Source: Polyangium jinanense (GTDB lineage: Bacteria > Myxococcota > Polyangia > Polyangiales > Polyangiaceae). From it: a stretch of 64,000 nt of DNA. The translations under genes and the position numbers were made by a program. Under the pieces are notes generated by a model. The model searched no databases. It was not told the origin of the DNA and worked only from the letters and a program-made list of their open reading frames with translations. The stretch lies in assembly GCF_028435365.1 (NCBI RefSeq), contig NZ_JAGTJJ010000032.1, positions 62,001-126,000 of the forward strand, written 5' to 3'. Shown in pieces: positions 31,980 through 62,879 of the stretch (its first letter is position 1; every line of letters begins with the position of its first letter).

Positions 31980-32323
31980 CGCCGGGGTTTCACCCCGGAC
32001 CCCAGCAGGGGCTATCCGCCCCTGCACCCGGACCAGCGCAAGCGCTGGACCCGGGGTCGATGAACTGCGCGATGCGCAGTTCATCGAACAGGCCGAATCA
32101 AGACCAGCTACGATCCTGCCGACCAAAACAGCCGCGCTGCCCTTTCGATCGACAACGCTGTTCCTGGTCTTCCAACGGGCCCGATGGAAGAACTGCGCAC
32201 CGCGCAGTTCTTCCATCACGAGTCCAGCGCTTGCGCTGGTTCGGGTCGAGGGGCGAACAGCCCCCGCGGGGCCCGGGGCAGCGCCCCGGCGCGGCGGCCC
32301 CAAGAAGAGACCAGTGCCCCCTC
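31973..32323 (+). repeat. Hairpin repeat element, full form (copy C)
   Basis: The left end matches short copy A (GTAGCGCCGGGGTTTCACCC) while the remainder matches full copies: CCAGCGCAAGCGCTGG, the palindrome TCGATGAACTGCGC-n3-inverse at 32057-32087, AACAGGCC and AAGACCAG, a centre with CCAAAACAGCCGCGCTGC, then CTGGTCTTCC, the second palindrome GGAAGAACTGCGC-n3-inverse (32185-32213), CCAGCGCTTGCGCTGG and GCGCCCCGGCGCGGCGG-CCCCAAGAAGAGACC. It therefore looks like a chimera of the two end types. It fills the gap between convergent genes. Confidence 0.85.
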
Positions 32324-44107: not shown

Positions 44108-44199
44108 ACGCGACGAGATCGCTCTTCTTCTTCTGGGCGGCGACGATATCGGCATCGAAATACGCAGCGCGCTGCCAGGGCGTGTGAATGCGCGGCGTC
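44091..44199 (-). pseudogene. Possible 3' remnant of a c-type cytochrome/cytochrome c peroxidase gene
   Basis: On the minus strand a frame ending at TAG 44091-44093 reads ...TPWQRAAYFDADIVAAQKK and then KSDLVAFMRTL. The last part resembles the closing helix (KADLVAFLRTL type) of many cytochrome c and diheme peroxidase proteins. It cannot start on its own: the frame upstream enters repeat copy E after about 35 codons, and the heme-binding CxxCH parts are absent. The simplest reading is a gene end left after the repeat or an associated deletion removed the rest. The remnant overlaps the last 17 bases of the ribA gene. Confidence 0.4.
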
Positions 44200-44536
44200 G
44201 TCTCCTCTGGGCGGCGTTTCGCTGGGGCGTTGCCCCAGGCCCCAGCAGGGGCTATCCGCCCCTGCACCCGGGGCCTGCGCAAGCGCTGGACCCGGGTTCG
44301 ATGAACTGCGCGATGCGCAGTTCATCGAACAGGCCGAGGAACGCCCTCGCCAACCAAAACAGCCGCGCTGCCATTTCGATGGTCAACGCCGGCCATGGTC
44401 TTGCCACCGGCCCGTGGAAGAACTGCGCACCGCGCAGTTCTTCCCTGAAGGTCCAGCGCTTGCGCTGGTTCGGGTCGAGGGGCGAACAGCCCCCGCGGGG
44501 TCCGGGGCCGCGCCCCGGCGCGGCGCCAATGCTCAG
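44200..44536 (+). repeat. Hairpin repeat element, full form (copy E)
   Basis: Starts near GTCTCCTCTGGGCGGCGTTTCG, shortened here to the key parts GTCTC and TTCGCTGGGGC, followed by CTGGGGC-n3-GCCCCAG, the palindrome TCGATGAACTGCGC-n3-inverse (44298-44328), AACAGGCC, a centre containing CCAAAACAGCCGCGCTGCC, CTTGCCACCGGCC, the second palindrome GGAAGAACTGCGC-n3-inverse (44415-44443), CCAGCGCTTGCGCTGG, and an end GCGCCCCGGCGCGGCG then CCAATGCTCAG. It lacks the AAGAAGAGACC segment near the right edge present in copies B and C. It lies 93 bp after the ribA stop, beside the cytochrome-like remnant. Confidence 0.85.
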
Positions 44537-44735
44537 CCGAGATGAGCGTTCGGTTCCTCCACGAGAACCCAGCAGAGCAGGCGCTCTTGGGGTGCGTCGG
44601 CGGCGGGGAGGCAGGTTCGTCACGCCACGCTGGTTTCACCGGATAGGGATGACCGTCAACGATGGATCGTGGCCTCGGCCCTGTGGCATAAACGGATCGC
44701 TCGCGCCCGCGCCTGGCAGTCGAGCGAGGTTTTCC

Positions 44736-47700: not shown

Positions 47701-50654
47701 TCGCGGGGATCCATGCGGGGCTTGAGACCGGCCATTACATCTGGTCGTTCTACAACACGATCGACCTCCTCACGAACAGCTTCCTCCGAGGCCTCCCGCT
47801 CCCCGATCTCCTCGCCGAGGTGGACAGCTTCCATCGGGTGCGCAAGCTCGATCAGTTCAACGCCATCACGTGGATCGGCGGAGCGGTGGGGCAACTCGCG
47901 CACAACCTCTCGGTCGAGACCGAGCGACCCACGACGCTCGTGGGCCCCTTCGTGGACATCGACGAGGTCATCTCGGAGGCGCGCCGCATCGGCAACCAGG
48001 CCTCGCTCTACATCGCCCATTTTTACGCTGTGGTCCTTTGCGTCTTTCAGGGCGCGTTCGAGGAGGCCGCGCGCATCGCGCTTCGGACGAACCCCGCGCT
48101 CTCGGGCGTCGAGAGCTGGCACGGCAACCCGGCCTTGCATTTTTATGGTGGCCTCGCGCTCGCGCGAGCGTCGGATGTCGTCTCCAGCGACGAGCGCGCG
48201 CACTTCCTCGCAACCGCCGAGGCCTACGCGAGCAAGCTCTCCCGCTGGGCCGACCTATGCCCGGAGAACCTCGCGCATCGGTGCGTCCTCCTGCTCGCCG
48301 AGCTCACGCGCGCCCGCGGCGACGCGCGCGGCGCCGGCGATCGATACGACGAGGCCATCGCCCTCGCGCAGCGCGGCGGCTACCTCCAGGACGAGGCGCT
48401 CGCCAACGAGCTCGCGGGCTTCTCGTTCCATGCGCTCGGCAAGACCACCATCGCCCGCGCCTACTTTACCGAGGCGCACAGGGTCTACGGCCAATGGGGC
48501 GCGACCGAGGTGATGCGGCGCCTCGAACGTTCCTACCCGGACCTCGTCCCTGGCGAGATCCTCCGCGGTGCGAGGGGCCCGGGGGCCGCCGTACCTGCAG
48601 GCGCCGTGCTCGACATCGCCTCGGTGCTCAAGGCTTCCCAGGCCATTTCGGGCGAGATCGTCCTCGACCGACTGCTCGACGCGCTCATGCGCATCCTGAT
48701 CGAGAACACCGGCGCGCGGCGCTGCGTCCTTTTGCTCCTGCGCGACGGACGGCTCGTCGTCGAGGCCGAGCACCGCATCGGGGAGGCGCCCGTCCACGCG
48801 CTCGGCGCGACGCCCCTCGAGGGCCGCGCGGACCTGCCCGCCGGCGTCGTGACGTACGTGGCGCGCACGGGGGAGACCATCGTTCTCGACGACCGCCCGA
48901 GCGACGGGCCGTTCGCGCGTGAGCCTTGGCTCACGAGTGGACGGCCTCGCTCCTTGCTCGCCGCGCCCATTGTCTACAAGGGCCGCCTCGCCGGCGTGAT
49001 CTACCTCGAGAACGATCTCACCCGCTCGGCGTTCACCCCCGCGCGCGTCGAGGTGATCCGGCTGCTCTCGGCCCAGGCGGCCATTTCCATCGAAAATGCG
49101 CGCCTCTATGCGGATCTGCAGCAGGAGAACGCGGTGCGACGGCGCGCGGAGGAATCCGTTCGAGAGAGCCAGGAGCTCCTCCAGTCCATCGTGGACAATA
49201 CGAGCGCCCTCATCTTCGCCAAGGACCTGGAGGGCCGCTTCGTATTCGCCAACCGCTGCCTCGAGGAGCTCCTCCACATGCGCCACGAGGACATCCTCGG
49301 CAAGACCAACCACGAGCTCTTCCCGCGCGAGTTCGCCGATCAGTATCGCGCCCATGATCTCCTCGTCGTGCGGGAGAACCGGGCCATCGAGTTCGACGAG
49401 TCGGCGCTGGACCAAGGCGAGATGCGCACCTATATGTGCATCAAGTTCCCGCTCCGCGATCTCGCCGGGAAAACGTACGGCATTTGCGGCATCGCGACCG
49501 ATGTCACCTCCCGCAAGCGCGCCGAGGAGGGGCTGCGCCATTCTTACTCGCTCCTCGAGGCCACGCTCGAATCGACGGCGGACGGCATCCTCGTCGTCGA
49601 CTGCGGGCGGCACGTCGTGCGCCACAACCGCAGGTTCGTGGAAATGTGGCGCCTCCCCGACGACGTCCTCGCCAGCGGGTCGGACGACGTGTTCCGTTCG
49701 TTCGTCCGCCATGAGCTCCTCGAACCCGGACCGTTCGAGCAAAAGGTCCACGCCCTCTATTCCTCGCCCGAGGAGAGCAGCGTCGATGTGCTTCCTTTCG
49801 CGGACGGTCGGGTCTTCGAGCGTTATTCGCAGCCGCAGCGCCTCGGCGAGCGCGTGGTCGGGCGTGTCTGGAGCTTCCGCGACGTCACCGCGCGCGTGCA
49901 CGCCGAATTGCAGCGTGATCGCCTCCTGCTCGACGAGCGGGGCGCGCGCGCCGCGGCGGAGGAGGCGGTCCGCGTGCGGGACGAATTCCTTTCCATCGCC
50001 TCCCACGAGCTCCGCACCCCGCTCACCAGCCTGCAGCTCGCCATTCAATCGCTGGAGCAACGGCTCTCGCGGGGCATGGACGTCGAGCGCGTGCGCTCCG
50101 CGGTCACCCTCTCCGGGCGCCAGATCAAGCGCCTCGCCAGCCTCGTCGATGCGCTGCTCGACGTCACTCGGATCCAGGCGGGAAGGCTCGAGCTAAACCC
50201 GACGCTCGTCGATCTGCGCGCGCTCGTGCAGGAGGTCGCCGCCCACCTTGGCGATCAGATCGCGCAATCCGGCAGCACGCTCACCGTGCGCGCGGATCAG
50301 CCGGTCGTCGGCCCATGGGACCCGTACCGGCTGGAGCAGGTCGTGACGAACCTGCTCACGAATGCCATCAAGTTCGGGAAAGAAAAACCCATCGAAATCA
50401 CGATCGGCATCGATGGGCAGCTCGCGCGACTCTCGGTGACGGACCACGGGATCGGGATTCCGGACGAGGTGCAGGCGCACCTCTTCCAGCGATTTCACCG
50501 CGGCGTATCTTCGCGCCACTACGGGGGGCTCGGGCTCGGCCTCTACATCACCCGCACCATCGTCGAGGCGCACGGCGGGCGAATTTCCGTGTCGAGCGAG
50601 GTCGGCCAGGGCTCGACGTTCCAGGTCGAGCTGCCGCTCTTGCCCACCGCCTGA
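44736..50654 (+). CDS. Kinase-like/AAA-ATPase/GAF/PAS-PAS/histidine-kinase fusion protein
   Basis: This 1,972-residue sensor has, in order: a Ser/Thr-kinase-like domain (about 10-270); an AAA-type ATPase (Walker A GYSGIGKSS near 330, Walker B LVLFLDDLQW); a long helical region of tetratricopeptide-like character (about 700-1270); a GAF domain (about 1290-1460); two PAS domains (about 1481-1595 and 1603-1718); HisKA with phospho-acceptor His in SHELRTPL (about 1757); and HATPase with NAIKFG, DHGIGIP and GLGLGLY boxes. The kinase-like part reads HRDLRPRN and has GLG where DFG should be, so it is probably a pseudokinase. ATG 44736 was chosen because longer frames run into repeat copy E. No response regulator is adjacent. 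Confidence 0.92.
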   Translation: MMADTGYALAEKTEETDYFTLYRARREGDTAVLLKVLRPEGARTVEIARFKQQYERLARITSSRLVAIRGVEERAGALIVVLEDVPGRDLAQTLAARPSRKMPVGEALDLAVALAEGLAAMHAAGLVHRDLRPRNVLVGEGCAVKITGLGADAEITRAHELLYAPVVLVEVLPYVSPEQTGRMNRGVDYRTDLYALGTILYQALTGRPPFEGVDPMQIIHAHLAVAPAPPSVLDPAIPEAVSGVVLKLLEKNAEDRYQSAEGLLFDLHHCREALQSGGELAPFVPGQHDRADLLRIHQKLYGREHDIQALTSAFERALAGSREIVLVSGYSGIGKSSLVQEILKPLARKKGYFTSGKHDPFHRATPYSGFIQAFDALVRQILVESEARIRTWRTALLDALGQNGQVICDVIPSLSHVIGPQPEVPTLGPLEAQNRLNRCFSLFVSVFARHEHPLVLFLDDLQWIDGASLGLLRTLLADDSLEALFFCGAYRDNEISPAHPFMMELGELERGGLSVQRIVLAPLGRRHLLAMLGDCLGREDTGPLADVVLKKTGGNPFFVKRLVQSLHDHGVLTYTFDAGWRWDLAKIEALAYSENVVDLMVRTIERLPARTQEALRIAAAIGSRFDLDVLASLLACSPEEAVFRLECAVEEGLLLADRSGYRFAHDKIQESAYAMIPEGDRAAYRLRIGRHLAGHIDLADSQNLFDVVGHLNAAGDLLTDGAERLRLARMNLDAAIRAEESAAFCSALHYLEQGLPRLPPDAWTSNHALRLAYAKKRGLMLALCGRHDEGLAELERCVEHTEGRLDRTEVLRLKMNVQVLKNDLPAVLTEGLSALRGFGIDLPPFPDDATLDAQLRTTMALVRERSLEALPDLPPLVDPEIRALQDVLQELFAPCWFLSLNQLGITVAKSLETTFRHGLSSHAIYGCINLGAFLCGRGDIELGYRFGRVARDLVRRSRDKQSEAMFCNMWGACVQHWRESYVACRETLLAGIHAGLETGHYIWSFYNTIDLLTNSFLRGLPLPDLLAEVDSFHRVRKLDQFNAITWIGGAVGQLAHNLSVETERPTTLVGPFVDIDEVISEARRIGNQASLYIAHFYAVVLCVFQGAFEEAARIALRTNPALSGVESWHGNPALHFYGGLALARASDVVSSDERAHFLATAEAYASKLSRWADLCPENLAHRCVLLLAELTRARGDARGAGDRYDEAIALAQRGGYLQDEALANELAGFSFHALGKTTIARAYFTEAHRVYGQWGATEVMRRLERSYPDLVPGEILRGARGPGAAVPAGAVLDIASVLKASQAISGEIVLDRLLDALMRILIENTGARRCVLLLLRDGRLVVEAEHRIGEAPVHALGATPLEGRADLPAGVVTYVARTGETIVLDDRPSDGPFAREPWLTSGRPRSLLAAPIVYKGRLAGVIYLENDLTRSAFTPARVEVIRLLSAQAAISIENARLYADLQQENAVRRRAEESVRESQELLQSIVDNTSALIFAKDLEGRFVFANRCLEELLHMRHEDILGKTNHELFPREFADQYRAHDLLVVRENRAIEFDESALDQGEMRTYMCIKFPLRDLAGKTYGICGIATDVTSRKRAEEGLRHSYSLLEATLESTADGILVVDCGRHVVRHNRRFVEMWRLPDDVLASGSDDVFRSFVRHELLEPGPFEQKVHALYSSPEESSVDVLPFADGRVFERYSQPQRLGERVVGRVWSFRDVTARVHAELQRDRLLLDERGARAAAEEAVRVRDEFLSIASHELRTPLTSLQLAIQSLEQRLSRGMDVERVRSAVTLSGRQIKRLASLVDALLDVTRIQAGRLELNPTLVDLRALVQEVAAHLGDQIAQSGSTLTVRADQPVVGPWDPYRLEQVVTNLLTNAIKFGKEKPIEITIGIDGQLARLSVTDHGIGIPDEVQAHLFQRFHRGVSSRHYGGLGLGLYITRTIVEAHGGRISVSSEVGQGSTFQVELPLLPTA

Positions 50655-50726: not shown

Positions 50727-51860
50727 ATGGAGCGGGCGAACCACCCCTACCGCATCGGGATCTCCGGCTCGTACGGAGGCATGAACCTCGGCGACGAAGC
50801 CATCCTCGATGGTATCATCACGCAATTACGAGCGTCGGTTCCCGCGGAGATCACCGTATTCTCCCTCAATCCCCAGGACACGGAACGGAGGCACGATGTC
50901 GACCGCGCCGTACCCGTCCGCAGCCTCACGCGCAAGGAATCCGCTGCCGAGGTCGGACGGCTCGACCTCTTCATCCTCGGCGGCGGCGGCATTCTCTACG
51001 ATCGTGATGCCGCGACGTACCTGAGAGAGGTGCTCATCGCGAAAGAGCTCGGCGTCCCCGTCGTCGTTTATGCCGTGAGCGCCGGACCGCTCGTGGATCC
51101 GAGCGCACGACAAGCCGTGCGGACGGCCCTGAACGCGGCGACGGTCGTCACCGTCCGTGACAAGCAAGCGCGCCGCCTGCTCGAGGACGTCGGCGTGGAT
51201 CGCGAGATTCACCTCACCGCCGATCCAGCGCTGCTCCTGCGCGAGGAGCCCTTGCCCATCGAGGCCATCAAGGCGGAGGGCGTCGAGTTCGAACGGCACC
51301 TGGTCGGCTTCTCCGTCCGGGAGCCGGGGCCCGCGGCGCCCGACATCGACCCCGACGAATATTATTCGCTGCTCGCGAACGCGGCCGACTTCGTCATCGA
51401 GCGGCTCGACGCGGACGTCGTGTTCGTGTCGATGGAAAGGACGGACGTGCAGCACAGCCACGCCGTCGTCGCCCACATGAAAAACGCCGAGCGCGCCGAG
51501 GTCCTGCGGCGCTCGTACACGCCGCAGCAGATCCTCAATTTCGTCGGCCACCTCGAGTTCACGGTGGGGATGCGCCTCCACTTCTTGATCTTCTCGGCGC
51601 TCCGCGAGATCCCTTTCGTCGCGCTGCCTTATGCCTCCAAGGTGAAGGGGTTCATCGAGGACCTCGAAATGGAGACCCCGCCGCTCGGCAGCATCAGCGC
51701 CGGCCAGCTCATCGCGAGGCTCGACCGTTCGTGGGATACGCGTAACGAGACGCGCGCCAAGATCCGCCGCTTGCTCCCGGCCCTCAAGGATCGCGCGAGG
51801 GAGACGAATCGGATGGTCGTCGACATCCTCACGGCGCAACGCGAACGCGAGGCGGCGTGA
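50727..51860 (+). CDS. Polysaccharide pyruvyl-transferase family protein
   Basis: This 377-residue protein has the family layout of WcaK/CsaB-like proteins: an N-terminal GSYGGMNLGDEAILDGI (nucleotide/acceptor loop), LDLFILGGGGILYD, YAVSAGPLVD, and a C-terminal TVGMRLHFLIFSALREIPF. The His of the MRLH motif is conserved in members that add pyruvate ketals to cell-wall glycans; the pyruvyl donor would be phosphoenolpyruvate. The ATG at 50727 is preceded by GGAGG. It ends two bases before the FAD oxidoreductase gene, so the two are co-transcribed. Its place beside a sugar-acid pathway rather than a glycan cluster is unexpected. Confidence 0.87.
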   Translation: MERANHPYRIGISGSYGGMNLGDEAILDGIITQLRASVPAEITVFSLNPQDTERRHDVDRAVPVRSLTRKESAAEVGRLDLFILGGGGILYDRDAATYLREVLIAKELGVPVVVYAVSAGPLVDPSARQAVRTALNAATVVTVRDKQARRLLEDVGVDREIHLTADPALLLREEPLPIEAIKAEGVEFERHLVGFSVREPGPAAPDIDPDEYYSLLANAADFVIERLDADVVFVSMERTDVQHSHAVVAHMKNAERAEVLRRSYTPQQILNFVGHLEFTVGMRLHFLIFSALREIPFVALPYASKVKGFIEDLEMETPPLGSISAGQLIARLDRSWDTRNETRAKIRRLLPALKDRARETNRMVVDILTAQREREAA

Positions 51861-51861
51861 C

Positions 51862-53430
51862 ATGGACGTGATCCGGACCGACGTGGCCATCATCGGCGGA
51901 GGACTCGGCGCCTGCGCCGCGGCGCTCGCGGCGGCTCGAATGGGCCTCCGTGTCGTGCTGACCGAGGAGACGCGCTGGCTCGGCGGTCAATTGACGAACC
52001 AGGCCGTTCCTCCCGACGAACACCCGTGGATCGAGGAACATGGGGCAAACCGGAGCTACCGCGCGCTGCGCGACGGGATCCGGCAATATTATCGCAGGAA
52101 TGTACCACTCTCCGCGGCGGCCAAGGCCCTTCCCACCCTGAACCCGGGGAATGGATGGGTCAGCCGCCTCTGCCACGATCCGCGCATCGCGGTCGCCGTG
52201 CTGCACGAGATGATCGCGCCGTACCGGCTCAACGGCAGCCTCTTCGAGCTTCGCCTCCACCGGCCGATCTCGGCGTGGACGCATGGCGACCGGGTGACCG
52301 GCGTCGTGGTCCGAGGGCGGGAGTCGGGGCGCGACGTCCTCCTCGAGGCCGATTACTTCATCGACGCCACGCCCCACGGCGAGCTCTTGGCCCTCGCGGG
52401 CGTGGAACACGTCCTCGGGCAAGAGTCCCGCGGGGAGACGGGGGAGCCGCACGCCGCCGAGGCGGCGGACCCGAGGGCCCAGCAAGCGATCACGGTGTGC
52501 TTCGCGATGGAGCACCTCCCCGGGGAAGACCATACCATCGACAAACCCCGTCAATACGATTTCTGGCGCGCGTACGAGCCACAGAGCTGGCCAGGCCGCC
52601 TGCTCGATTGGACGACCGTTCGCCCCGAGACCCTCGAGCCGCTGAGGCGGGGCCTGTTCGCCGCGGACGACGGTCACCCGTGGTGGACCTTCCGGCGTAT
52701 CCTCGACAAGGACATCTTCGAGCCGGGCTTCGCGCGGAGCGACGTCACCATCGTGAACTGGCCCCAGAACGATTACTGGCTCGGGCCCGTCTGCGGCGTC
52801 GACGCGGCGGAAGCCGCGCGGAACGAGGACGCCGCGCGGCAGCTCAGCTTGAGCCTCCTCTACTGGCTACAGACCGAGGCCCCCCGACCCGATGGCGGCG
52901 TCGGATACCGCGGGTTGCGCCTCCGCGCGGACGTGGTCGGCGGCACCGCGGACGGCCTCGCGCCGGCGCCGTACATTCGCGAATCCCGCCGGATCCGCGC
53001 GGAGTTCACGGTGCTCGAGCAGCACATCGCGTATCCGCTTCGCCCCGATGGCCCCGCGATCTTCGACGACAGCGTCGGGATTGGTTGCTACCGCATCGAT
53101 TTGCACCCGCGCGTCGGAGGCGCGGGTTACCTCGACCTTGGCTGCTGGCCGTTTCAGATTCCGCTGGGCGCGCTCATTCCGGTGCGTATGGAAAACTTGT
53201 TGCCAGGAGGCAAGAACCTGGGGACGACCCATATCACCAACGGTGCCTTCCGTGTCCACCCGGTCGAGTGGAGCGTGGGCGAGGCAGCGGGGCTCCTCGC
53301 GACGTTTTGCCTCGAGCGCCGCGTGCTCCCGCGAGAGGTGCACGCCCGGAAATCGCTGCGCGAGGAGCTCCAGACGTTGCTGCTCCGAAATGGCGTCGAG
53401 CTCGCCTGGCCAAAGGTGAGCCCGTTATGA
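51862..53430 (+). CDS. FAD-dependent oxidoreductase
   Basis: This 522-residue flavoprotein has the N-terminal dinucleotide motif DVAIIGGGLGACAAALAAAR (Gly-x-Gly-x-x-Gly), followed by GGQLTNQAVPPDEH and, near the C-terminus, LLPGGKNLGTTHITNGAFR. This matches the FAD_oxidored group of uncharacterised dehydrogenases often linked to carbohydrate use. There is no signal peptide. The start at 51862 lies one base after the stop of the pyruvyl-transferase-like gene. Downstream is repeat copy F and then uxaC on the same strand, so it may oxidise or reduce a sugar derivative of that pathway (inference only). Confidence 0.85.
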   Translation: MDVIRTDVAIIGGGLGACAAALAAARMGLRVVLTEETRWLGGQLTNQAVPPDEHPWIEEHGANRSYRALRDGIRQYYRRNVPLSAAAKALPTLNPGNGWVSRLCHDPRIAVAVLHEMIAPYRLNGSLFELRLHRPISAWTHGDRVTGVVVRGRESGRDVLLEADYFIDATPHGELLALAGVEHVLGQESRGETGEPHAAEAADPRAQQAITVCFAMEHLPGEDHTIDKPRQYDFWRAYEPQSWPGRLLDWTTVRPETLEPLRRGLFAADDGHPWWTFRRILDKDIFEPGFARSDVTIVNWPQNDYWLGPVCGVDAAEAARNEDAARQLSLSLLYWLQTEAPRPDGGVGYRGLRLRADVVGGTADGLAPAPYIRESRRIRAEFTVLEQHIAYPLRPDGPAIFDDSVGIGCYRIDLHPRVGGAGYLDLGCWPFQIPLGALIPVRMENLLPGGKNLGTTHITNGAFRVHPVEWSVGEAAGLLATFCLERRVLPREVHARKSLREELQTLLLRNGVELAWPKVSPL

Positions 53431-53463: not shown

Positions 53464-53858
53464 CTGAGCCTGGGTCTCTTCTTGGGGCCGCCGCGCCGGG
53501 GCGCCGCCCCGGGCCCCGCGGGGGCTGTTCGCCCCTCGACCCGAACCAGGGCAAGCCCTGGACCGTTCGTGGAAGAACTGCGCGATGCGCAGTTCTTCCA
53601 ACAGGCCGGTGGCAAGACCAGGAAGGTGCGTTTCACGCTGGTGACGGGCACGTTGCCCGTTGAGCCGTCAGCGCCGCGGTCTTGGCAGGCAGGGTCGTCG
53701 CCAGTCTTGACCTGGCCTGTTCGATGAACTGCGCATCGCGCAGTTCATCGACCCCGGGTCCAGCGCTTGCGCTGGTCCGGGTCCAGGGGCGGATAGCCCC
53801 TGGTGGGGCCTGGGGCAACGCCCCAGCGCAGCGCCTTCCAGATGAGACCCATGCTCAG
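53464..53858 (-). repeat. Hairpin repeat element, most complete copy with terminal inverted repeats (copy F)
   Basis: The 395-bp element lies in inverse orientation relative to B, C and E. Its outer ends are inverted repeats: CTGAGCCTGGGTCTCTTCT (53464-53482) and the complement of CTGAGCATGGGTCTCATCT (53840-53858), 17 of 19 identical. Inside are CGCCGGGGCG-n-CCCCGG, the palindromes with arms GGAAGAACTGCGC (about 53573-53601) and TCGATGAACTGCGC (about 53721-53751), and CCAGCGCTTGCGCTGG. TTATGGC occurs on both flanks (53451-53457 and 53860-53866), a possible target-site duplication. No transposase frame is present. Confidence 0.88.
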
Positions 53859-53914: not shown

Positions 53915-55351
53915 ATGCCGCCCCGATGGACGCTCGACCCTGATCGCCTCTTTTCCGCGGAACCCTCCCAGCGAGCGGCCGCCCGGGAGCTTTATGCCCT
54001 GGTGCGTGATCTGCCCATCGTGAGCCCGCACGGCCACGTGGATCCGGCGCTGCTTGCGGATCCTTCGGCCCGCTTCGGCTCGCCCGCCGACCTGTTCGTC
54101 CTTCCCGACCATTACGTCTGCCGCCTGCTCCACAGCCGCGGCGTGCCCATGGAAGACCTCGGCATCGCCACCCGCGACGGGAGCCCGCACGAGCGCGACC
54201 ACCGCCGCATCTGGCAACGCTTCGCCGACCATTTTTACGTCTTCAGATCCACGCCGAGCGGACTGTGGCTCTCTGACGTCCTCATTTCCGTGTTTGGCGT
54301 GACCGAGCGGCTCGACGGGAACACCGCCCAGCGCATCTACGATCACCTCGCCGAGCGCCTCGAACGGCCGGAGTTTTCCCCGCGCGCTCTCTACGAGAGG
54401 TTCAACATCCGCGTTCTCTGCACCACGGACGGCGCCGCGGATTCGCTCGAACATCACCGCCGCCTCCGTTCCGAGGGCCGGCTCGACGTTCGCCCGACCT
54501 TCCGGCCCGACGCGGTCGTCCACCCGGGCACGCCCGGCTTCCGCGATCACATCGAGCGGCTCGGCGCGGCCGCCGGCATCGAGATCACGACCTACGCCGA
54601 TTACATCCGGGCCCTCGAAGAGCGCCGCGCCACGTTCAAGGCGCTCGGCGCCACCGCCACCGACCATGGCGCCGTCACCCCGCACGCCGAGCGGCTCGGC
54701 GCTGCGGAGGCCGAGCGAATCTTTTCGCACGCGCTTCGCGGCGAGGCGGGCGCAAACGATGCGGCGCGGTTCTCCGCCCACATGCTCATGGAAATGGCGC
54801 GCATGAGCGTCGAGGATGGCCTCGTCATGCAGCTCCACGCCGGCAGCCTGCGCAACCACCACGGGGCGCTGCTCGCGCGCTTCGGGCCCGATCGCGGCGC
54901 CGACATCCCCGTCGCCACCGAATGGACGAGAAACCTGCGGCCGCTGCTCGAAGCGTACGGCGACGATCCACGCTTCCAGCTCCTGCTCTTCACGCTCGAC
55001 GAGAGCACCTACGGGCGCGAGCTCGCCCCGCTCGCCGGGTATTATCCGGCCGTCTTGCTGGGGCCGCCCTGGTGGTTCTTCGATAGTCCGAATGGAATGG
55101 TCCGGTTTCTCGATCAAGTCACGGAGACGGCCGGCCTCTACAACACCGCGGGTTTCACCGATGATACGCGCGCGTTTTGCTCGATCCCCGCGCGGCACGA
55201 CGTCTGGCGCCGGGTGAGCAGCAACTGGCTCGCGGGGCTCGTGGTGACGGGCAGGCTCGACGCCGAAGAGGCGGCGGAGCTCGCCCCGGAATGCGCGGTG
55301 GGCCTGGCCGAGCGTGCTTATCGGCTCGGGGCGGGGGATCGGTCCACATGA
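53915..55351 (+). CDS. uxaC: Uronate (glucuronate) isomerase
   Basis: This 478-residue enzyme of the amidohydrolase-like UxaC family converts D-glucuronate to D-fructuronate (and galacturonate to tagaturonate). It shows the metal/active-site motif SPHGHVDP near residue 30, FNIRVLCTTDGAAD, HAGSLRNHHG, FTLDESTYGRELAPLAGYYP and LGPPWWFFDS, and has the usual family length. ATG 53915 follows TATACT (53902-53907) and AGGG closely. Its stop overlaps the start of the mannonate oxidoreductase gene (ATGA), so translation is coupled. In this locus the glucuronate would come from the myo-inositol oxygenase encoded at 60278. Confidence 0.95.
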   Translation: MPPRWTLDPDRLFSAEPSQRAAARELYALVRDLPIVSPHGHVDPALLADPSARFGSPADLFVLPDHYVCRLLHSRGVPMEDLGIATRDGSPHERDHRRIWQRFADHFYVFRSTPSGLWLSDVLISVFGVTERLDGNTAQRIYDHLAERLERPEFSPRALYERFNIRVLCTTDGAADSLEHHRRLRSEGRLDVRPTFRPDAVVHPGTPGFRDHIERLGAAAGIEITTYADYIRALEERRATFKALGATATDHGAVTPHAERLGAAEAERIFSHALRGEAGANDAARFSAHMLMEMARMSVEDGLVMQLHAGSLRNHHGALLARFGPDRGADIPVATEWTRNLRPLLEAYGDDPRFQLLLFTLDESTYGRELAPLAGYYPAVLLGPPWWFFDSPNGMVRFLDQVTETAGLYNTAGFTDDTRAFCSIPARHDVWRRVSSNWLAGLVVTGRLDAEEAAELAPECAVGLAERAYRLGAGDRST

Positions 55352-56172
55352 ATCCGGCGACGTTGTTCGACATTCGCGGCGAAGTGGCGGTCATCACGGG
55401 CGGCAGCGGCGTGCTCGGGTCCACGTTTTGCCGCACGCTCGCCGCGGCGGGCGCGTTCGTGGCCGTGATGGGGCGGCGGCGCGAGCCGTGCGAGGCCGTG
55501 GTGGAGTCGATCCGCGCGGAAGGGGGCGAGGCGCTCGCCGTGCCCTGTGACGTGCTCGATGGCGAGGCGCTCGACGCGGCGGCGCGGCACATCGAGGCCA
55601 CGCTCGGGCCGGTGACCATTCTCGTGAACGGGGCCGGAGGCAATCATCCGAAGGCCACGATCGGGCCGGATCGTAGCCTGTTCGAGCTGGATCCGGCGGG
55701 GTTCGGCGCGGTCTTCGATCTGAACGTGCAAGGCACGCTGCGGCCCTGCCAGGTCTTCGGACGCGGCATGGCCGCGCGGGGGCGTGGAAGCATCGTGAAC
55801 ATCACGTCCATGAGCGCCGATCGCCCGCTCACGCGTGTGGCCGCCTATGGCGCGGCGAAGGCCGCCGTCGTCAACCTGACTCGCTGGCTCGCGGTGCACA
55901 TGGCCCAGACCTACGGCCCCCACATCCGCGTCAACGCGCTCGCGCCTGGGTTTTTCCTCACGGAACAAAACCGATTTTTGCTCACCGATCCCGCGACGAA
56001 CACGCTCACCGAGCGGGGGAGGGCGATCGTCTCGCACACGCCCATGGCGCGGATGGGCGCGCCGGAGGATCTTTCCGGCGCGCTGCTTTTCCTGGTCAGC
56101 CCGGCGTCGACCTTCGTGACGGGGGTGGTCTTGCCGGTGGACGGCGGGTTCTCCGCCCAGAGTGGGGTATGA
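55348..56172 (+). CDS. uxuB: D-mannonate oxidoreductase (fructuronate reductase), SDR type
   Basis: This 274-residue SDR has the cofactor motif TGGSGVLG, NGAGGNHPKA, catalytic Ser in NITSMSAD, Tyr-Lys in YGAAKAA and the C-terminal pair APGFFLTEQNRFLLTD and VLPVDGGFSA. These signatures mark the SDR-type mannonate oxidoreductases (as in Bacillus and Thermotoga uronate operons) that reduce D-fructuronate to D-mannonate with NAD(P)H, distinct from the longer E. coli-type enzyme. The ATG overlaps the uxaC stop by four bases. The next gene begins one base after its TGA, so uxaC, this gene and the LarA-like gene form one coupled operon. Confidence 0.92.
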   Translation: MNPATLFDIRGEVAVITGGSGVLGSTFCRTLAAAGAFVAVMGRRREPCEAVVESIRAEGGEALAVPCDVLDGEALDAAARHIEATLGPVTILVNGAGGNHPKATIGPDRSLFELDPAGFGAVFDLNVQGTLRPCQVFGRGMAARGRGSIVNITSMSADRPLTRVAAYGAAKAAVVNLTRWLAVHMAQTYGPHIRVNALAPGFFLTEQNRFLLTDPATNTLTERGRAIVSHTPMARMGAPEDLSGALLFLVSPASTFVTGVVLPVDGGFSAQSGV

Positions 56173-56173
56173 G

Positions 56174-57415
56174 ATGTTGATCGGCCAGGGTTCTCCCGGG
56201 CAAACCCTCACGGACGAGGCCGTCCACCGGATCCTCGACGAGGCGCTCGCCGCGCTCCCGCTCACGGGCAAACGGCTCCTCGTCATCATCCCCGACGCGA
56301 CCCGCACCGCGCCGATCCCGCTCATGTTTCGGCTCCTCCACACGCTCCTCGCCGGACGTGTCGCGCGTCTCGATTATTTGATTGCGCTCGGCACACATCC
56401 GCCAATGGATGAAACCGCCATCGAAAAACTCGTCGGGAAAGATGGGCCGGGGCGCGGCGACGGGCGAACGTCGATCTTCAATCACGCGTGGGACGATCCG
56501 GGCGCGCTGGCAACCATCGGCGTGATCGGCGAGGACGAGATGGCGCGCCTGACCGGCGGGCTGCTCGCGGTCGCGACAGAGGTGCGGCTCAATCGCAGGA
56601 TCTTCGAGTATGATCAAATCCTCATCTGCGGCCCGGTGTTCCCGCACGAGGTGGTGGGTTTTTCCGGGGGCGCCAAGTACCTGTTCCCGGGCATCGCGGG
56701 GCGCGAGATCATCGACACGACCCACTGGCTCGGGGCGCTCTCGACGAGCATGTCGACGATCGGCGTCAAGGATACGATCGTCCGGCGGGTGATCCATCGC
56801 GCGGCCGAATTCGTGCCGGTGCCCGTCCTCTGCGCGGCCCTCGTGCTCCGCGGCGCGGATCTGCACGGGTTTTACGTAGGCCCGCACGTGGAGGCGTGGA
56901 GCGTGGCGGCCGATCTCTCCAATGAGCTCAACATCATCCACACGAAGCGGCGCTACCAGCGCGTGCTCTCGCTCCCCTCGACGAAATACGCCGACCTCTG
57001 GACCGCGGCCAAGGCCATGTACAAGACGGAGCCCGTGATCGAGGATGGCGGCGAGGTGATCATTTACGCGCCGCACCTCGGGGAAGTCTCGTTCACCCAC
57101 GGCGCGCTCATCGATCGGGTGGGCTACCACGTGCGGGATTATTTTCTCGCGCAATGGGACCATTTCCGCACGGTCCCCCTGTCCATCCTCGCGCACAGCA
57201 CCCACGTGAAAGGCGCGGGCCGCTACGACGCAGAGCAAGGAGAACGGCCGCGCATCCAGGTGACGCTCGCGACGGGCATCCCGGAAGAGCGCTGCCGGCG
57301 GATCAACCTGGGGTTCACCGATCCCCGAGGGATCGATCCGGCTGCGTGGGAGGGGCGGGAAGACGAGGGGATCCTGATCGTGCGGAACGCGGGCGAAGTG
57401 CTTTATCGGTCATGA
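56174..57415 (+). CDS. LarA-like nickel-pincer racemase/epimerase, probable sugar-acid epimerase
   Basis: This 413-residue protein matches the lactate racemase (DUF2088/LarA) family: DATRTAP, GTHPPM (catalytic His75) and [20 protein letters not shown] with His158 and Lys168, ten residues apart as in the lactate racemase pair that binds the nickel-pincer nucleotide. LarA interconverts 2-hydroxy acids at C2 by hydride transfer. The operon position right after uxuB suggests a sugar-acid substrate; C2 epimerisation of D-mannonate would give D-gluconate (inference). An in-frame GTG at 56162 could extend it by four residues. LarB, C and E, needed to make the cofactor, are not in the window. The stop overlaps the convergent ABC gene by six bases. 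Confidence 0.88.
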
Positions 57416-58204
57416 AGCTCGAAGCTCGTGCTGGAGTTGCTCGAGCTCCTCGCCGCCCGCCATGCGTCGCACCAGCTCGTCGCGCGAGATCTCCGCCTTG
57501 GTAAAGGTCCCCTCGCAGCGGCCCCGGCTCAAAATGGTGAATCGGTCCCCGACCATGTGCGCGTGGTGCGGGTTGTGCGTGATGAGAATGACGCCGCATC
57601 CCCGTGTTCGCGCCTCCATCACGTACCGGAGGACGATCCCCGCCTGCTTCACGCCGAGCGCGGACGTCGGCTCGTCGAGCACGAGCACCCGGGCGCCGAA
57701 ATGGATCGCCCGCGCAATCGCGAGCGCCTGGCGTTGTCCGCCCGAAAGCGCCGAGACCGGCGCCGACATGTCGCGCAGCTCGATCCCCATTCGCTTGAGC
57801 TCGGCGCGCACCACCTCCTCGGCCTCGCGCAAATCGAGGCGCCTGAGGGGCCACACGCCCCGCGTGGGCTCGGCGCCGAGGAAAAAATTGCGCACGACCG
57901 AGAGCATCGGGACCATCGCGAGGTCCTGGTACACGGTGGCAATGCCGCGGGCGAGGGCGTCCCGCGGCGAGGAGAATCGCACGGGCTCGCCGTCCACGAG
58001 CAGGCGCCCCTCGTCCGGCGGATGGACGCCCGAGAGCGTCTTGATGAGCGTCGATTTGCCGGCGCCGTTGTCCCCGAGGACACACAGGATCTCGCTCGCA
58101 TACACGCGCATCGAGACGTCCTCGAGCGCGGTGATGCGACCGAATCGCTTGGTGATGTGATCCGCTTCGAGGATCGGTGCCGTACCGTTCGTCTCGTGGC
58201 TCAT
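57410..58204 (-). CDS. Sugar ABC transporter ATPase (single-domain, carbohydrate uptake type)
   Basis: This 264-residue ABC ATPase has Walker [11 protein letters not shown]-loop [10 protein letters not shown], signature [15 protein letters not shown], Walker [13 protein letters not shown] and H-loop ITHNPHH. It resembles the first half of RbsA-type proteins but has one nucleotide-binding domain, as in FrcA-like systems, and should act as a homodimer. It powers the permease encoded upstream in the operon, overlapping it by four bases (ATGA). The C-terminus ends against the convergent LarA-like gene. The cargo is probably a polyol or sugar; myo-inositol fits the adjacent MIOX gene (inference). 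Confidence 0.93.
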
Positions 58205-59190
58205 CGCCGCGCCTCCGCCGCCCGCATCTGGACGGAGCTGTTGAGGAGCACCGCCAGGATCAGGACCGCGCCGAGAAACACCTTGTACCAGTCCGAATCC
58301 ACGCCCGAAAAGACGATGCCCTGCTGCACCATGCCGAAGAGGAGCGCTCCGCAGGCCGCGCCCACGACGGATCCGCGTCCGCCCGTGAGCAGCGTGCCGC
58401 CGAGGACCGCGGCGAGAATGGCTTCGAGCTCCTTGCCCGTGCCACGCAAAACGTCGGTGCCGCGGAATTGCACGGTCTGAAACGTGGCGACCAGGCACGC
58501 GGCAAGCGCCGTGGTCATGAAAAGAAGAATCTTGACGCGGTCGACCGGAATCCCGAGGCGGCGCGCGGCATCCGGGGCGCCGCCAACCGCAAAAATCCAG
58601 TTTCCTGGGCGCGTGCGCACGAGGACCCACGTGGCGAGCGCGGTGAGGCCCAACCACCAGAGCAGGGTGATCGAAAAAGGCCCGATCTGCCCGGCGAAGA
58701 GCTTTTGCGCCGTGCCGAATCCGCCCGCCTCCTCGAGGCCGCCCACCTGGGTTCGTCCGGTGATGAGGCGTGTCGTGCCAATCGTGCCGCCGGCCAGGAT
58801 GAAGAGCGTGCCGAGCGTGACGATGAACGAGGGCAGGCGCGTGCGGGTCACGATGAAGCCATTGGCGAGGCCCACGCACGCCGCGAGCGCCGCGGCCGCC
58901 GCGATCCCGGCCCATAACGGCCAGCCGAGCTCGGTCGTGCAAAGCGCGATGGTCATCCCGCTCGCGGCCATGGTCGAGCCAATGGAGAGGTCGAACTCGC
59001 CCGCGATCATGAGCAGCGCGACGGGCGCGGCCAGGATGCCGAGCTCGGCGGCGATCGCGAGGTAACTCGCCGTGCCGGAGAGGGTCAAAAACCCGGAGTC
59101 ACCGGCGGTGACGGCGAAAAAGAGCCAGGCGGCCACCACGGCGGCGACGACGCCGAGCTCGGGGCGGGCGAGCCATTTGCGCGCGGACAC
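58201..59190 (-). CDS. Sugar ABC transporter permease (RbsC type)
   Basis: This 329-residue membrane protein has about nine to ten hydrophobic helices and the RbsC/BPD_transp_2 signatures: [36 protein letters not shown], and the coupling-loop region [19 protein letters not shown]. It forms the channel of the carbohydrate uptake system (CUT2 class). The start is taken as GTG 59190, two bases after the stop of the binding-protein gene, because no ATG precedes the first helix. The overlap with the ATPase gene and the two-base gap to the binding-protein gene show a tight three-gene operon. Confidence 0.92.
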
Positions 59191-59192
59191 GG

Positions 59193-60200
59193 CTAACGAA
59201 TGCCTTTCTTGCTCGCGTCGATCACGGCCGCCGCGTTCTCCTTCGTGACGAACGAGGGCCCCGTGGGGATCGCCTCCGCCGCGGGGAGCAGGCCGTGCCG
59301 CGTGTATTGCGCGAGCAGGACGACGGAGAGATATCCCTGCAAATATTGCTGCTGGTCGATGGCGAACGTGATCTGCCCGTCGCGGACCGCCGCGAGGACG
59401 TCGGGCGAAAGATCGAACGTCGCGACCTTGACCGTGCCGAGCCGGTTCGCTTGCCGGAGGCCGGCGAGGGCCGGGTGCACGCCCGGCGGGCCCAGCGTGA
59501 AAATGCCATCCACGTCGGGCGTCAATGCGGCCATGATCTTTTGTTGTGTGTCGGTGGGGCTCGTGGCGTTCACCGCCAGCACGCGACCCTTGCCCCCCAC
59601 CTTTTCGAGCGCGTCGAGGAAGCCGCGGCAACGCTCGTCCTGGGAGATGTTGCCGACCTCGTGGTTCACGCAGATCGCGTGGCGCACGCCCTCCTTCGCC
59701 ATACGCTCACCGCCGGCCTTCCCGGCGTCGTATTCGCTCTGGCCGATATGCAAGAGCGCGCCCATCTTGCGCGCCTCTGCGCCGCCGGCGTTGATGCTGA
59801 TGACGGGAATGCCGGCGTCTCGGGCAGCCAAAAGCGAACGCGCGAGGGCGCTGGGATCCGGGACGGAGACGATGAGGCCGCTCGGCTTGCGGGCGACCTC
59901 GGCGTCGATGAGGCGGCTCATCGCGACCATGTCGAAGGTCTGGGGCGCCTGGTACGTGACCTTGACGCCCATGTCCTTCGCCGCCTGGTCGATTCCGTTT
60001 TTCACCACGGACCAGAATGGATCGGAGGCCTGGCCGTGGGTGACGACCGCGAAATGCGCCCTTACGCTCGAATCGCGCGTGGTCGCGCTCGCGCGCTCGC
60101 CCCTGCCGCATGCGATGGCGGCGAAGAGGGCGACGAGGCAGCCGAGGACCATCCACAACGCGCGGCGGCGGGCGGAGAGCTCTCTTTTCATGTTCCCCAT
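59193..60200 (-). CDS. Sugar ABC transporter substrate-binding lipoprotein
   Basis: This 335-residue protein has a lipoprotein signal (LFAAIAC) and a periplasmic-binding-protein fold of the RbsB class: [20 protein letters not shown] at the first lobe, [36 protein letters not shown] and [17 protein letters not shown]. Ligand-contact residues of known inositol binders could not be assigned from sequence, so cargo identity is inferred from context. It is the first gene of the importer operon and is divergent from the MIOX gene with a 77-bp shared upstream region. MGN at 60200 and MKR at 60191 are alternative starts. Confidence 0.92.
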
Positions 60201-60277
60201 TTCCTCGCGGAGCCCCCTGCGCCGCGACCTTCGAGAATCCTAGCGCCGCCCGGACCTTCGCGCTATTGCCCTGGACA

Positions 60278-61117
60278 ATGAGCGTGACCGAGCACCTTGG
60301 GCAGATCCAGGATGGGAAACGAGCAGCCGCCACGACAGCAAAGAAGGAAACCTCGGAGTTTCGCGATTACCGCGCCGAGGCGAGGCCCAGCGTCAAGGAG
60401 CTTTACCGGCTGAACCACGAGCACCAGACGCTCTCGTTCGTAGAGGACAAGAAGCGGCAATACCTGAGCCTGGATCGGCGCCGGGCGGGTATGTGGGAGG
60501 TGCTCGAGCTGCTCGATCGGCTGGTCGACGACAGCGATCCGGACACGGAGCAGTCGCAGATCGCGCACGCGCTGCAGTCCGCGGAGGCGGCGCGACGCGA
60601 CGATCAGCCGCCGTGGTTCGTCCTGACGGCGCTCATCCACGACGCCGGCAAGATGCTTTGCCTGTCGGGCGAGCCGCAATGGGCCGTCGTGGGCGATACG
60701 TTCCCCGTGGGCTGCGCGTTTTCGGACCGCATCGTCTTCCCCGAGCTCTTCGCGAACAACCCGGATCGGCAAAACCCGCGTTATCAGACGCCGTGCGGGG
60801 TGTACGAGGAGGGATGTGGGCTCTCGAAGGTCCACATGTCGTGGGGGCACGACGAATACCTTTACCACGTGGTGAAGGAGTACCTGCCGCTCGAGGCCCA
60901 GTACATGATCCGGTATCACTCGTTTTACGCGGCCCACCGCGAAGGCGCCTATGGGCACCTGATGAACGAGCAGGACCGGCAGATGATGGAGTGGGTGCGG
61001 CGGTTCAACCCGTACGATCTCTACTCGAAGGCCGACGCGCCGCCGGACGTGGCGAAGCTCCGGCCCTATTACCAGGACCTCATCGCGAAGTATCTTCCCG
61101 CCGAGCTCCGCTGGTGA
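60278..61117 (+). CDS. miox: myo-Inositol oxygenase (MIOX)
   Basis: This 279-residue enzyme matches the diiron HD-fold myo-inositol oxygenases that cleave myo-inositol with O2 to D-glucuronate. Landmarks are LNHEHQTLSFV, the metal pair LIHDAGK, HMSWGHDEYLYHV, RYHSFYAAHREGAY and NPYDLYSKAD at the end, so all expected His/Asp iron ligands are visible. The length equals the eukaryotic enzymes. Bacterial MIOX is uncommon; here it sits beside an importer and glucuronate enzymes, making the assignment secure. No ribosome site precedes ATG 60278; the message may be leaderless or nearly so. Repeat copy G starts directly after its TGA. Confidence 0.94.
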   Translation: MSVTEHLGQIQDGKRAAATTAKKETSEFRDYRAEARPSVKELYRLNHEHQTLSFVEDKKRQYLSLDRRRAGMWEVLELLDRLVDDSDPDTEQSQIAHALQSAEAARRDDQPPWFVLTALIHDAGKMLCLSGEPQWAVVGDTFPVGCAFSDRIVFPELFANNPDRQNPRYQTPCGVYEEGCGLSKVHMSWGHDEYLYHVVKEYLPLEAQYMIRYHSFYAAHREGAYGHLMNEQDRQMMEWVRRFNPYDLYSKADAPPDVAKLRPYYQDLIAKYLPAELRW

Positions 61118-61451
61118 TTCGCTGGGGCCGCCGCGCCGGGGCGCTGCCCCGGTCCCCGCGGGGGCTATTCGCCCCTCGACCCGAACCAGGGCAAGCCCTG
61201 GACCTCAGGGGGAAGAACTGCGCGATGCGCAGTTCTTCCCACAGGCCGGTGGCAAGACCAGGGACAGCGTTGCCAGTCACGGCGGTCTTGGTTGGCAGGG
61301 TCGTACCTGGTCTTGACTCGACCTGTTCGATGAACTGCGCATCGCGCAGTTCATCGACCCCGGGTCCAGCGCTTGCGCTGGTCCGGGTCCAGGGGCGGAT
61401 AGCCCCGGTGGGGCCTGGGGCACAGCCCCAGCGCAGCGGCTCCCAGATGAG
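61118..61451 (-). repeat. Hairpin repeat element, full form (copy G)
   Basis: Inverse orientation, like copy F, and starting right after the MIOX TGA (TTCGCTGGGGCC). It has the GC-rich arm GCCGCCGCGCCGGGGCGC, CCAGGGC-n2-GCCCTGG, the palindrome GGAAGAACTGCGC-n3-inverse (about 61212-61240), GTGGCAAGACCAG, a centre, then the palindrome TCGATGAACTGCGC-n3-inverse (about 61327-61357), CCAGCGCTTGCGCTGG and CTGGGGC-n-GCCCCAGCGCAG, ending at AGATGAG. The terminal inverted repeats seen in copy F are incomplete here. It fills the gap between the MIOX gene and the convergent FGGY kinase gene. Confidence 0.85.
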
Positions 61452-61466
61452 CTCGTTCGCCATCGC

Positions 61467-62879
61467 CTACGAATAAAGCCTTCGATAAAGCTCGATCTGC
61501 CGCTCCTTCGCGGCGCGATACACTTCGGCGACCTCCGGCCGCGGCTCGAAGATTCGCGACGCGGACGGGGCGAGGGATGCGAGGGATCCCAGGCCCCGCG
61601 CCGTGAGCGCCAGCATGGCCGCGCCGCGCATCGTGGCCTCGTCGCCCATGAGATGAACGGGCGTCTGCATCGCGTCCGCGAACATCTGGGCCCAGGCGGG
61701 GGAAGCGGAGAGCGCGCCGCCTCCGGCGTACAGGGCGTCGCTGCCGCCGAGCGCGTCGTGAATCTGCGCGAGCCGCAAAGCGATCGATTCGTACAAGGCC
61801 TGCACGATGTCGCGCGGGGTCGTGGACAGCCGCAAGCCGTGCAGGGTGGCCGTGGCATCCGGCCGATAACCGGGGCTACGTTCTCCCGCGAACATGGGCA
61901 AAACGGTGAGACCGTGCGCGAAGGGCTCGCCAAACACGAGCGGCTCGTCGTCGAGCCTCAGATGCGCGCGCGCCCAGGCGTGGGCATTGCCCCCTTCGCT
62001 CGTGGCCCCTCCGATGAGCTCGCGTGTTTCGTCGATGCGATAGGCCCAGAGCCCCTTCGGCACAGGGCACGGCGGGGTTTCCGCAACACGCATTTGCCGC
62101 AAGGCCGCGGTCGTCCCGACGGTCAGCGACGTGCTTCGAGGCGAAATCGCGCCGCTGCCGACATGCGCCGCCGCGCCGTCCCCGATGGCCGGAAAAAACG
62201 GCGCGTCGCGGAGCGCGGGCCAGCGCTGGGCATGAGCGGGCATGAGGCCCATCTCGGCATGCCGAGAGCCGACCACGGGCGGAAGGTAATCCGGCGTGAG
62301 CCCGAGAATGTTCAGCCATTCAGCCGACCAGCTCCGCGAAGCACGGTCGAGCAGGCCACTCCACGAGGCCACGGAAGAGCTGCACGGGATCTCCCGGCCG
62401 AACCAAGCACGATAGAGATACGTGCCGAAATCGAGCCACGTCGCAGGCATGATCCGCCCGTTCCGAGCATACCAGCGCAGGCGCGCCGGATGATACGCGG
62501 TATGCAACGGGCAGCCCGTCGCCTGATAGAGACGGGCGCCATCGACCTCGGTCCGCAATGCCTCGACATCCGCGGACGGGCGGGTGTCGGCATACGTGAA
62601 CACGGGCGTCACGGGCTGGTTCTCGGCGTCCACGCCGAGCAAATTCCCCACGAACGTCGCCACCGCGACCGCCTCGATCGGCGGAGCGTTCGCCAGGATT
62701 CGATCGACGCACCCTTCGACGGACGCGCGGAGCTTGCGCGCATCCACCTCCGCGGTGCCGTCCGCGGCCACCGTGAAGGCATACGGTTCGGCCGTTTCGC
62801 GGCAGATACGCGCGCTCCCGTCACAAATGGCGGCGCGCACCGACGAGCTGCCGACATCGATCACGAGGACGTGCGCCAT
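61467..62879 (-). CDS. FGGY-family carbohydrate kinase (gluconokinase candidate)
   Basis: This 470-residue protein has the FGGY/actin-fold landmarks: phosphate-1 loop VIDVGSSSVRAAICD, substrate-side TYADTRPSADV, hinge region TSLTVGTTAALR, and adenosine motif LYAGGGALSASPAWAQMFAD. It should phosphorylate a sugar or sugar acid with ATP. FGGY gluconokinases share this size and the DVGSSS-type loop, but xylulo- and other kinases cannot be excluded from motifs alone. In this locus a gluconokinase would finish the route to 6-phosphogluconate (inference). It is convergent with the MIOX gene across repeat copy G, and no FGGY-linked regulator is nearby. Confidence 0.88.
   Translation of the reverse strand: MAHVLVIDVGSSSVRAAICDGSARICRETAEPYAFTVAADGTAEVDARKLRASVEGCVDRILANAPPIEAVAVATFVGNLLGVDAENQPVTPVFTYADTRPSADVEALRTEVDGARLYQATGCPLHTAYHPARLRWYARNGRIMPATWLDFGTYLYRAWFGREIPCSSSVASWSGLLDRASRSWSAEWLNILGLTPDYLPPVVGSRHAEMGLMPAHAQRWPALRDAPFFPAIGDGAAAHVGSGAISPRSTSLTVGTTAALRQMRVAETPPCPVPKGLWAYRIDETRELIGGATSEGGNAHAWARAHLRLDDEPLVFGEPFAHGLTVLPMFAGERSPGYRPDATATLHGLRLSTTPRDIVQALYESIALRLAQIHDALGGSDALYAGGGALSASPAWAQMFADAMQTPVHLMGDEATMRGAAMLALTARGLGSLASLAPSASRIFEPRPEVAEVYRAAKERQIELYRRLYS

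Follow-up and report, generated by a model that had tools for sequence, protein, structure and literature searches.

For Thermotoga, a bypass from D-mannonate to D-gluconate was put forward in 2012 by Rodionova and colleagues, as cited in other papers. The Thermotoga protein GntE2 was assayed as a D-mannonate/D-gluconate 2-epimerase in 2020, and further gluconate epimerases were described in 2024. Since it was proposed in 2012 and its enzyme assayed in 2020, the idea that a nickel C2-epimerase can take the place of mannonate dehydratase (UxuA) is in itself not novel. The subject of this analysis is a block of eight genes within a 64,000-nucleotide stretch of Polyangium jinanense (contig NZ_JAGTJJ010000032.1, positions 62,001 to 126,000), referred to below in its entirety as the window. 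The block probably encodes an oxidative route for myo-inositol which passes through a LarA-superfamily C2-epimerase and a kinase to 6-phosphogluconate and leaves by the pentose-phosphate pathway, as judged from gene content and protein similarity. This version of the bypass, fed by inositol through myo-inositol oxygenase (MIOX), appears to be new. In the open literature, a scope that leaves most subscription papers outside, no paper joined MIOX to a LarA-type epimerase in its title or the start of its abstract; within the same scope, such a link was also missing from the literature on inositol, glucuronate or lactate racemase in Polyangium or other myxobacteria. The features of the block are as follows.

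53915..55351, + strand: uxaC, glucuronate isomerase (D-glucuronate to D-fructuronate); NF002794 500.6 bits against a cut-off of 387; PF02614
55348..56172, + strand: uxuB, short-chain dehydrogenase/reductase (SDR)-type D-mannonate oxidoreductase (D-fructuronate to D-mannonate); NF006132/PRK08277 351.2 bits against a cut-off of 281
56174..57415, + strand: LarA-superfamily protein, probable D-mannonate/D-gluconate 2-epimerase (GntE type); Lar_N PF09861 78.7 against 23.3
57410..58204, - strand: ATP-binding cassette (ABC) importer ATPase, sugar type; start at the methionine of MSHETNG; PF00005; AraG/YtfR-like; from the translation
about 58201..59190 (start approximate), - strand: ABC importer permease, sugar type; PF02653 148.6 bits; from the translation
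59193..60200, - strand: periplasmic sugar/cyclitol-binding lipoprotein of the importer, nearest to a rhizopine-type family; PF13407
60278..61117, + strand: MIOX (myo-inositol and O2 to D-glucuronate); PF05153 355.3 bits against 25
61124..61469, no strand: palindromic repeat element between MIOX and the kinase, outside the pathway; palindromes at 61215 and 61332; alignment breaks
61467..62879, - strand: FGGY-family kinase, probable gluconokinase (D-gluconate to 6-phosphogluconate); PF00370/PF02782

The genes uxaC and uxuB share 4 bases and a single base separates uxuB from larA, giving a tightly packed operon on the + strand. The importer operon is convergent with it and ends against larA. MIOX and the binding protein gene diverge with 77 bases between their starts, and the FGGY kinase gene converges on MIOX. 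The MIOX start was set at 60278, which yields a protein of 279 amino acids, the same length as the database copy P0124. A first-pass annotation of the window had described this layout, with uxaC, an SDR-type uxuB and a LarA-like gene in one operon, a convergent importer and an adjoining MIOX and FGGY kinase, and it proved right in every element and coordinate. It had also reported that the window holds no uxuA, and tblastn against the window, run with UxuA from myxobacteria as three queries and accepting E values up to 1e-4, likewise found none.

In the proposed pathway, the ABC importer would take up myo-inositol or a close cyclitol and MIOX would cleave the inositol ring with O2 to yield D-glucuronate. 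UxaC would then isomerize D-glucuronate to D-fructuronate, which UxuB would reduce to D-mannonate. The LarA homologue, whose nickel-pincer nucleotide LarB, LarC and LarE would supply, would remove the C2 hydride and return it on the other face to produce D-gluconate; hydride capture and return by the nickel-pincer cofactor have been described for LarA. Phosphorylation by the FGGY kinase would give 6-phosphogluconate, and a chromosomal 6-phosphogluconate dehydrogenase (Gnd) would decarboxylate it to ribulose 5-phosphate. With one reduction (UxuB) and one oxidation (Gnd), the path from glucuronate to ribulose 5-phosphate would be redox neutral. We infer the physiological direction, as well as the substrates of the epimerase and the kinase and the ligand of the importer.

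Protein families and predicted activities

Profile scores above the cut-offs establish the families to which MIOX, UxaC and UxuB belong. Mouse MIOX (2huo) matches the window MIOX with 262.7 bits and 129 identical residues among 257 aligned. Residues H98, H123, D124, H194, H220 and D253 of the mouse enzyme, which we take to be its di-iron ligands, are all identical in the window protein. A database survey found MIOX proteins to be common across many bacteria, and thus MIOX alone is not new.

The closest sequence and fold to the LarA homologue is GntE2 of Thermotoga (4NAR), with similarity over the full length. The catalytic and cofactor residues D72, R75, H108, H174, K184, H200 and K298 of LarA are kept as D41, R44, H75, H158, K168, H184 and K280. 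The signature of LarA groups 18–20, a loop E-V/S and a tryptophan in helix 11, is present as E159-V160 and W276; in helix 14, where these groups have A/V, the GntE2 residue N348 aligns with S337 and the signature position is not placeable. From these features, the protein is a probable D-mannonate/D-gluconate 2-epimerase of the GntE type. With the lactate or malate racemase families NF033504, NF052593 and NF052595 it scores 62.5, 90.8 and 67.9 bits, below the cut-offs of 460, 500 and 462. The prevalence of the LarA superfamily is reported to be highest in mainly anaerobic taxa, with Myxococcota in the same high-prevalence list; as a result, a LarA protein in Polyangium is in itself no surprise.

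The best PDB match of the kinase is 3gbt, named "Gluconate kinase" (101.5 bits), and the protein is 45% identical to the kinase downstream of LarA and Gnd in a Chloroflexi locus (L070) considered below. Its substrate would be D-gluconate. The binding protein scores 362.2 bits with the rhizopine-type family NF052284, below the cut-off of 420, and covers positions 3–289 of the 289 in the profile; its best PDB sequence match is 4ru1 (165.6 bits). The importer ligand may be myo-inositol or a close cyclitol.

Conservation and gene complement

Genome-wide counts were made in six Polyangium congeners that stand in for the window's own genome, among them Polyangium sp. 6x1, P. fumosum and Polyangium sp. 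y55x31. All eight genes occur together with their order kept in each of the six (L036, L037, L038, L178, L179 and L180), at a MIOX-LarA distance of about 3 kb, and the LarA homologue is 92%, 90% and 86% identical to the proteins of three Polyangium species. At the DNA level, L178, L179 and L180, the loci of Polyangium genomes G001, G002 and G006, align with the block between about 53.87 and 62.88 kb at 80–95% identity; the alignment is interrupted by an insert of about 345 bases and, in L179, by another gap of about 70 bases. Since the block stays conserved across these three loci, the grouping of its genes is not due to chance. Among the 97 relatives searched, MIOX was over its cut-off in the six Polyangium genomes and in none of the other 91, while a seventh genome has a MIOX fragment that scores below it.

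The first-pass annotation had proposed a search for the cofactor genes larB, larC and larE, each of which was found in 6 of 6 congeners, and for uxuA; UxuA was found in none of the six and in 3 of the 97 relatives. The dehydratase ManD was over its cut-off in 0 of 6 Polyangium and 0 of the 13 genomes searched. For 2-keto-3-deoxy-6-phosphogluconate (KDPG) aldolase (PF01081) the counts were 0 of 6 and 4 of 13, and for the IolB/KduI family 0 of 6 and 5 of 13. UxuA and KDPG aldolase, taken together as the mark of the canonical (Ashwell-type) glucuronate route, are therefore both lacking in the six congeners; 6-phosphogluconate dehydrogenase is present in all six. The first-pass annotation had left the exit at either the pentose-phosphate or the Entner-Doudoroff pathway. 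The former stands. Because KDPG aldolase is missing, both the 2-keto-3-deoxygluconate (KDG) route and the Entner-Doudoroff exit are disfavored, the latter being unlikely, and the exit is narrowed to the pentose-phosphate pathway.

Neighborhoods in other genomes were obtained by scanning GTDB genomes for two peptide patterns taken from the surroundings of the catalytic His and Lys; the best 80 loci of 515 relatives were kept. This set leans to close relatives, includes many metagenome bins and some short flanks, and contains three Polyangium loci. Of the 74 loci whose flank is long enough, 42 have upstream of LarA a UxuB that is at least 45% identical, on the same strand and no more than 2.5 kb away, and in 31 the gap is below 200 bases; leaving out the three Polyangium loci, the numbers are 39 and 28. 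Within 6 kb of LarA there is a UxaC in 13 of the 80 loci, Gnd in 9 (11 by looser clustering), an FGGY kinase in 9 and UxaE in 12, the UxaC and FGGY counts including the three Polyangium loci with MIOX. UxuA occurs within that distance in none of the 80.

LarA adjoins UxuB in Chloroflexota, Acidobacteriota, Deinococcota and Planctomycetota, in some cases with Gnd or a kinase as well. Since these LarA proteins sit beside UxuB in several phyla, the "lactate racemase" names that their sources give them are probably misleading. In L070, genes for UxaC, UxuB, LarA, Gnd (464.7 bits against 271) and a gluconokinase-like FGGY protein (gluconokinase 217.1 bits, under the cut-off; XylB 193.9) stand in a row, and a beta-glucuronidase (568.7 against 544) is encoded about 0.9 kb upstream. 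This locus is predicted to encode the same pathway with the glucuronidase in the place of MIOX. Adjacent genes in a myxobacterial locus, L176, encode a UxaE-like protein, UxuB, a LarA of group 18 and Gnd. On a plasmid of Saccharobesus litoralis (L143, 7488-9257), a single protein of 589 residues combines a GntK/IdnK gluconokinase (184.8 bits against 113.75) with a hexonate epimerase of LarA group 18 (618.9 against 500), a natural fusion; larB, gnd and a gene of the tagaturonate-epimerase family lie nearby. In Catenovulum, the gluconokinase and group 18 epimerase are overlapping neighbor genes near larB, larC and uxaC. The comparison of neighborhoods that the first-pass annotation had proposed came out in its favor: LarA with UxuB, UxaC or a kinase recurs in other phyla. 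MIOX adjoins it only in Polyangium.

Several further observations fall outside the pathway. In six Ktedonobacteria loci (L043, L044, L056, L057, L058 and L063), close LarA relatives adjoin, in place of uronate genes, a cluster that in L043 was identified as polyphosphate kinase. The repeat element that separates MIOX from the kinase (about 61124-61469) is absent from the corresponding site in L178, L179 and L180, where the alignment blocks break, and no such palindrome lies between MIOX and the kinase in L036, L037 and L038. The window holds five copies of this palindromic repeat of about 340 bases, which resembles a miniature inverted-repeat transposable element (MITE) or bacterial interspersed mosaic element (BIME), at 24088-24258, 32062-32210, 44303-44440, 53575-53746 and 61215-61352. 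Each copy has two perfect palindromes GAACTGCGCNNNGCGCAGTTC, giving 20 strand-wise matches where 0 were expected. Of the three loci compared, L178 is the only one in which the flank upstream of about 53.4 kb aligns. The window also holds an open frame of 2156 residues with domains of the Ser/Thr kinase, AAA_16, GAF, PAS and histidine kinase types (44184-50654, + strand), and a polysaccharide pyruvyl transferase-like gene (50727-51860, + strand) followed by an FAD-dependent oxidoreductase (51862-53430, + strand).

Alternative explanations

The pathway proposed here must be set against a number of results that weigh on the other side. The LarA homologue is 28% identical to GntE2 and scores 168.5 bits with NF052594 (group 18), its nearest curated LarA family, against a cut-off of 500, and the kinase reaches 143.5 bits with gntK_FGGY (TIGR01314) against 648.55, with XylB (142.9) also far under its cut-off. 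The cofactor genes were over cut-off in many of the relatives searched (LarB in 23 of 30 genomes, LarC in 48 of 59, LarE in 26 of 30); because they are common in relatives without this LarA as well, their presence allows the step and does not single it out. In the neighborhood set, with the thresholds applied, 27 of 80 loci, many of them Ktedonobacteria, lack UxuB, UxaC, Gnd, FGGY and UxaE within 6 kb, and only 3 of 80, all Polyangium, have MIOX within that distance. The authors of the LarA superfamily study themselves caution that context does not always predict activity. Finally, in two of six genomes of a Sorangium-type genus, MIOX occurs without other pathway genes nearby. These MIOX proteins (L172, 8636-9436; L173, 3396-4217) are 80–82% identical to that of the window, and the stretches around them contain no relative of UxaC, UxuB, LarA or FGGY.

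The Sorangium-type genes, together with the lack of MIOX within 6 kb in all 77 non-Polyangium LarA loci, are what might be expected of a coincidental neighborhood, in which MIOX serves another purpose, such as glucuronate for polysaccharide, and the uronate operon takes imported glucuronate. This seems very improbable given an eight-gene order kept in 6 of 6 Polyangium loci, a MIOX over its cut-off in these six alone among the 97 relatives searched, and an importer of the rhizopine/ribose type. It is somewhat less improbable, although still quite unlikely, that the substrate of the LarA homologue is a different 2-hydroxy acid from uronate metabolism (an aldarate or other hexonate) and that mannonate leaves by an unrecognized dehydratase. 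The authors of the 2020 study suspected a uronic or aldaric substrate for GntE1, and enolase-superfamily matches do exist in Polyangium, at no more than 39.2 bits against the ManD cut-off of 430. Against this stand the 31 of 74 loci with UxuB directly before LarA and the 8 of 72 with Gnd directly after it; moreover, without KDPG aldolase in any of the six Polyangium genomes, the product of a dehydratase would lack its usual exit. The order of the last two steps is a separate matter. If the FGGY kinase phosphorylated D-mannonate, the LarA homologue would epimerize 6-phosphomannonate to 6-phosphogluconate, an order that was seen in cell extracts of Lactobacillus suebicus, with the genes unidentified (PMC6978723), and one that suits a kinase which is no clear gluconokinase. 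We regard this as unlikely, though the strongest of the three alternatives, since GntE2, the closest assayed relative, uses free D-mannonate and the Saccharobesus hexonate epimerase, of the neighboring group 18, is fused to a GntK/IdnK-type gluconokinase whose named substrate is gluconate. Epimerization followed by phosphorylation is therefore the preferred order. With the block present in six congeners, the GntE residues kept and GntE2 the closest relative, the bypass that the first-pass annotation had read into this locus gains computational support.

Comparison with described systems

If the proposed pathway is correct, it would be a complete inositol route in an aerobic myxobacterium without a KDG step, and without a canonical iol route either, as far as the IolB family shows. 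It would join an O2-dependent oxygenase to a nickel-pincer enzyme in one route. The GntE bypass has so far been shown enzymatically for few proteins, while the UxuB-adjacent LarA spans several phyla.

The Thermotoga maritima route (GntE2, 4NAR, Q9WYS3) has the same parts, a uronate isomerase, an SDR mannonate oxidoreductase, a LarA-type epimerase and a gluconate kinase, and is likewise proposed to lead to the pentose-phosphate pathway. In contrast, Thermotoga is described as an anaerobic pectin degrader, whereas the block considered here is fed by an O2-dependent MIOX, and the Thermotoga genome matches UxuA and KDPG aldolase, both of which are missing in the Polyangium congeners. LarA group 18, the "putative hexonate epimerase" family (NF052594), shares with the window protein its larger clade, the loop and the helix 11 tryptophan, and has similar neighbors (UxuB and Gnd in L176; gluconokinase and LarB in L142 and L143); its members are, however, only 27–29% identical to the window LarA homologue. 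The galacturonate pathway of L. suebicus also converts mannonate to 6-phosphogluconate without dehydration, although there phosphorylation precedes a 6-phosphomannonate 2-epimerase (PMC6978723).

Two described gene groups include inositol oxygenase. The Francisella operon MIOX-UxaC-UxuB-UxuA-KdgK-KdgA (PMC3479022) likewise combines this enzyme with a uronate isomerase and a mannonate oxidoreductase; it differs in continuing with mannonate dehydratase, KDG kinase and KDPG aldolase, and its gene table contains no LarA step. The symbiosis-controlling hrm locus of Nostoc encodes inositol oxygenase (HrmE), glucuronate isomerase (HrmI), mannonate oxidoreductase (HrmU) and gluconate kinase (HrmK), and the gene list in the legend, as here, is without mannonate dehydratase (PMC5987646). 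It differs in that it has no recognized epimerase, that HrmA is without an assigned function and that the genes are discussed as regulators of hormogonia rather than as a carbon route. The pathway proposed for Polyangium suggests a testable idea for these unexplained genes. We would tentatively allow a small chance that an O2-dependent pathway of MIOX, UxaC, UxuB, mannonate C2-epimerase and gluconate kinase, which enters pentose-phosphate metabolism, recurs and has arisen or been assembled more than once, and that Nostoc hrm is the same pathway with HrmA in the epimerase slot, in which case HrmA would be either an unrecognized LarA relative or a non-homologous replacement.

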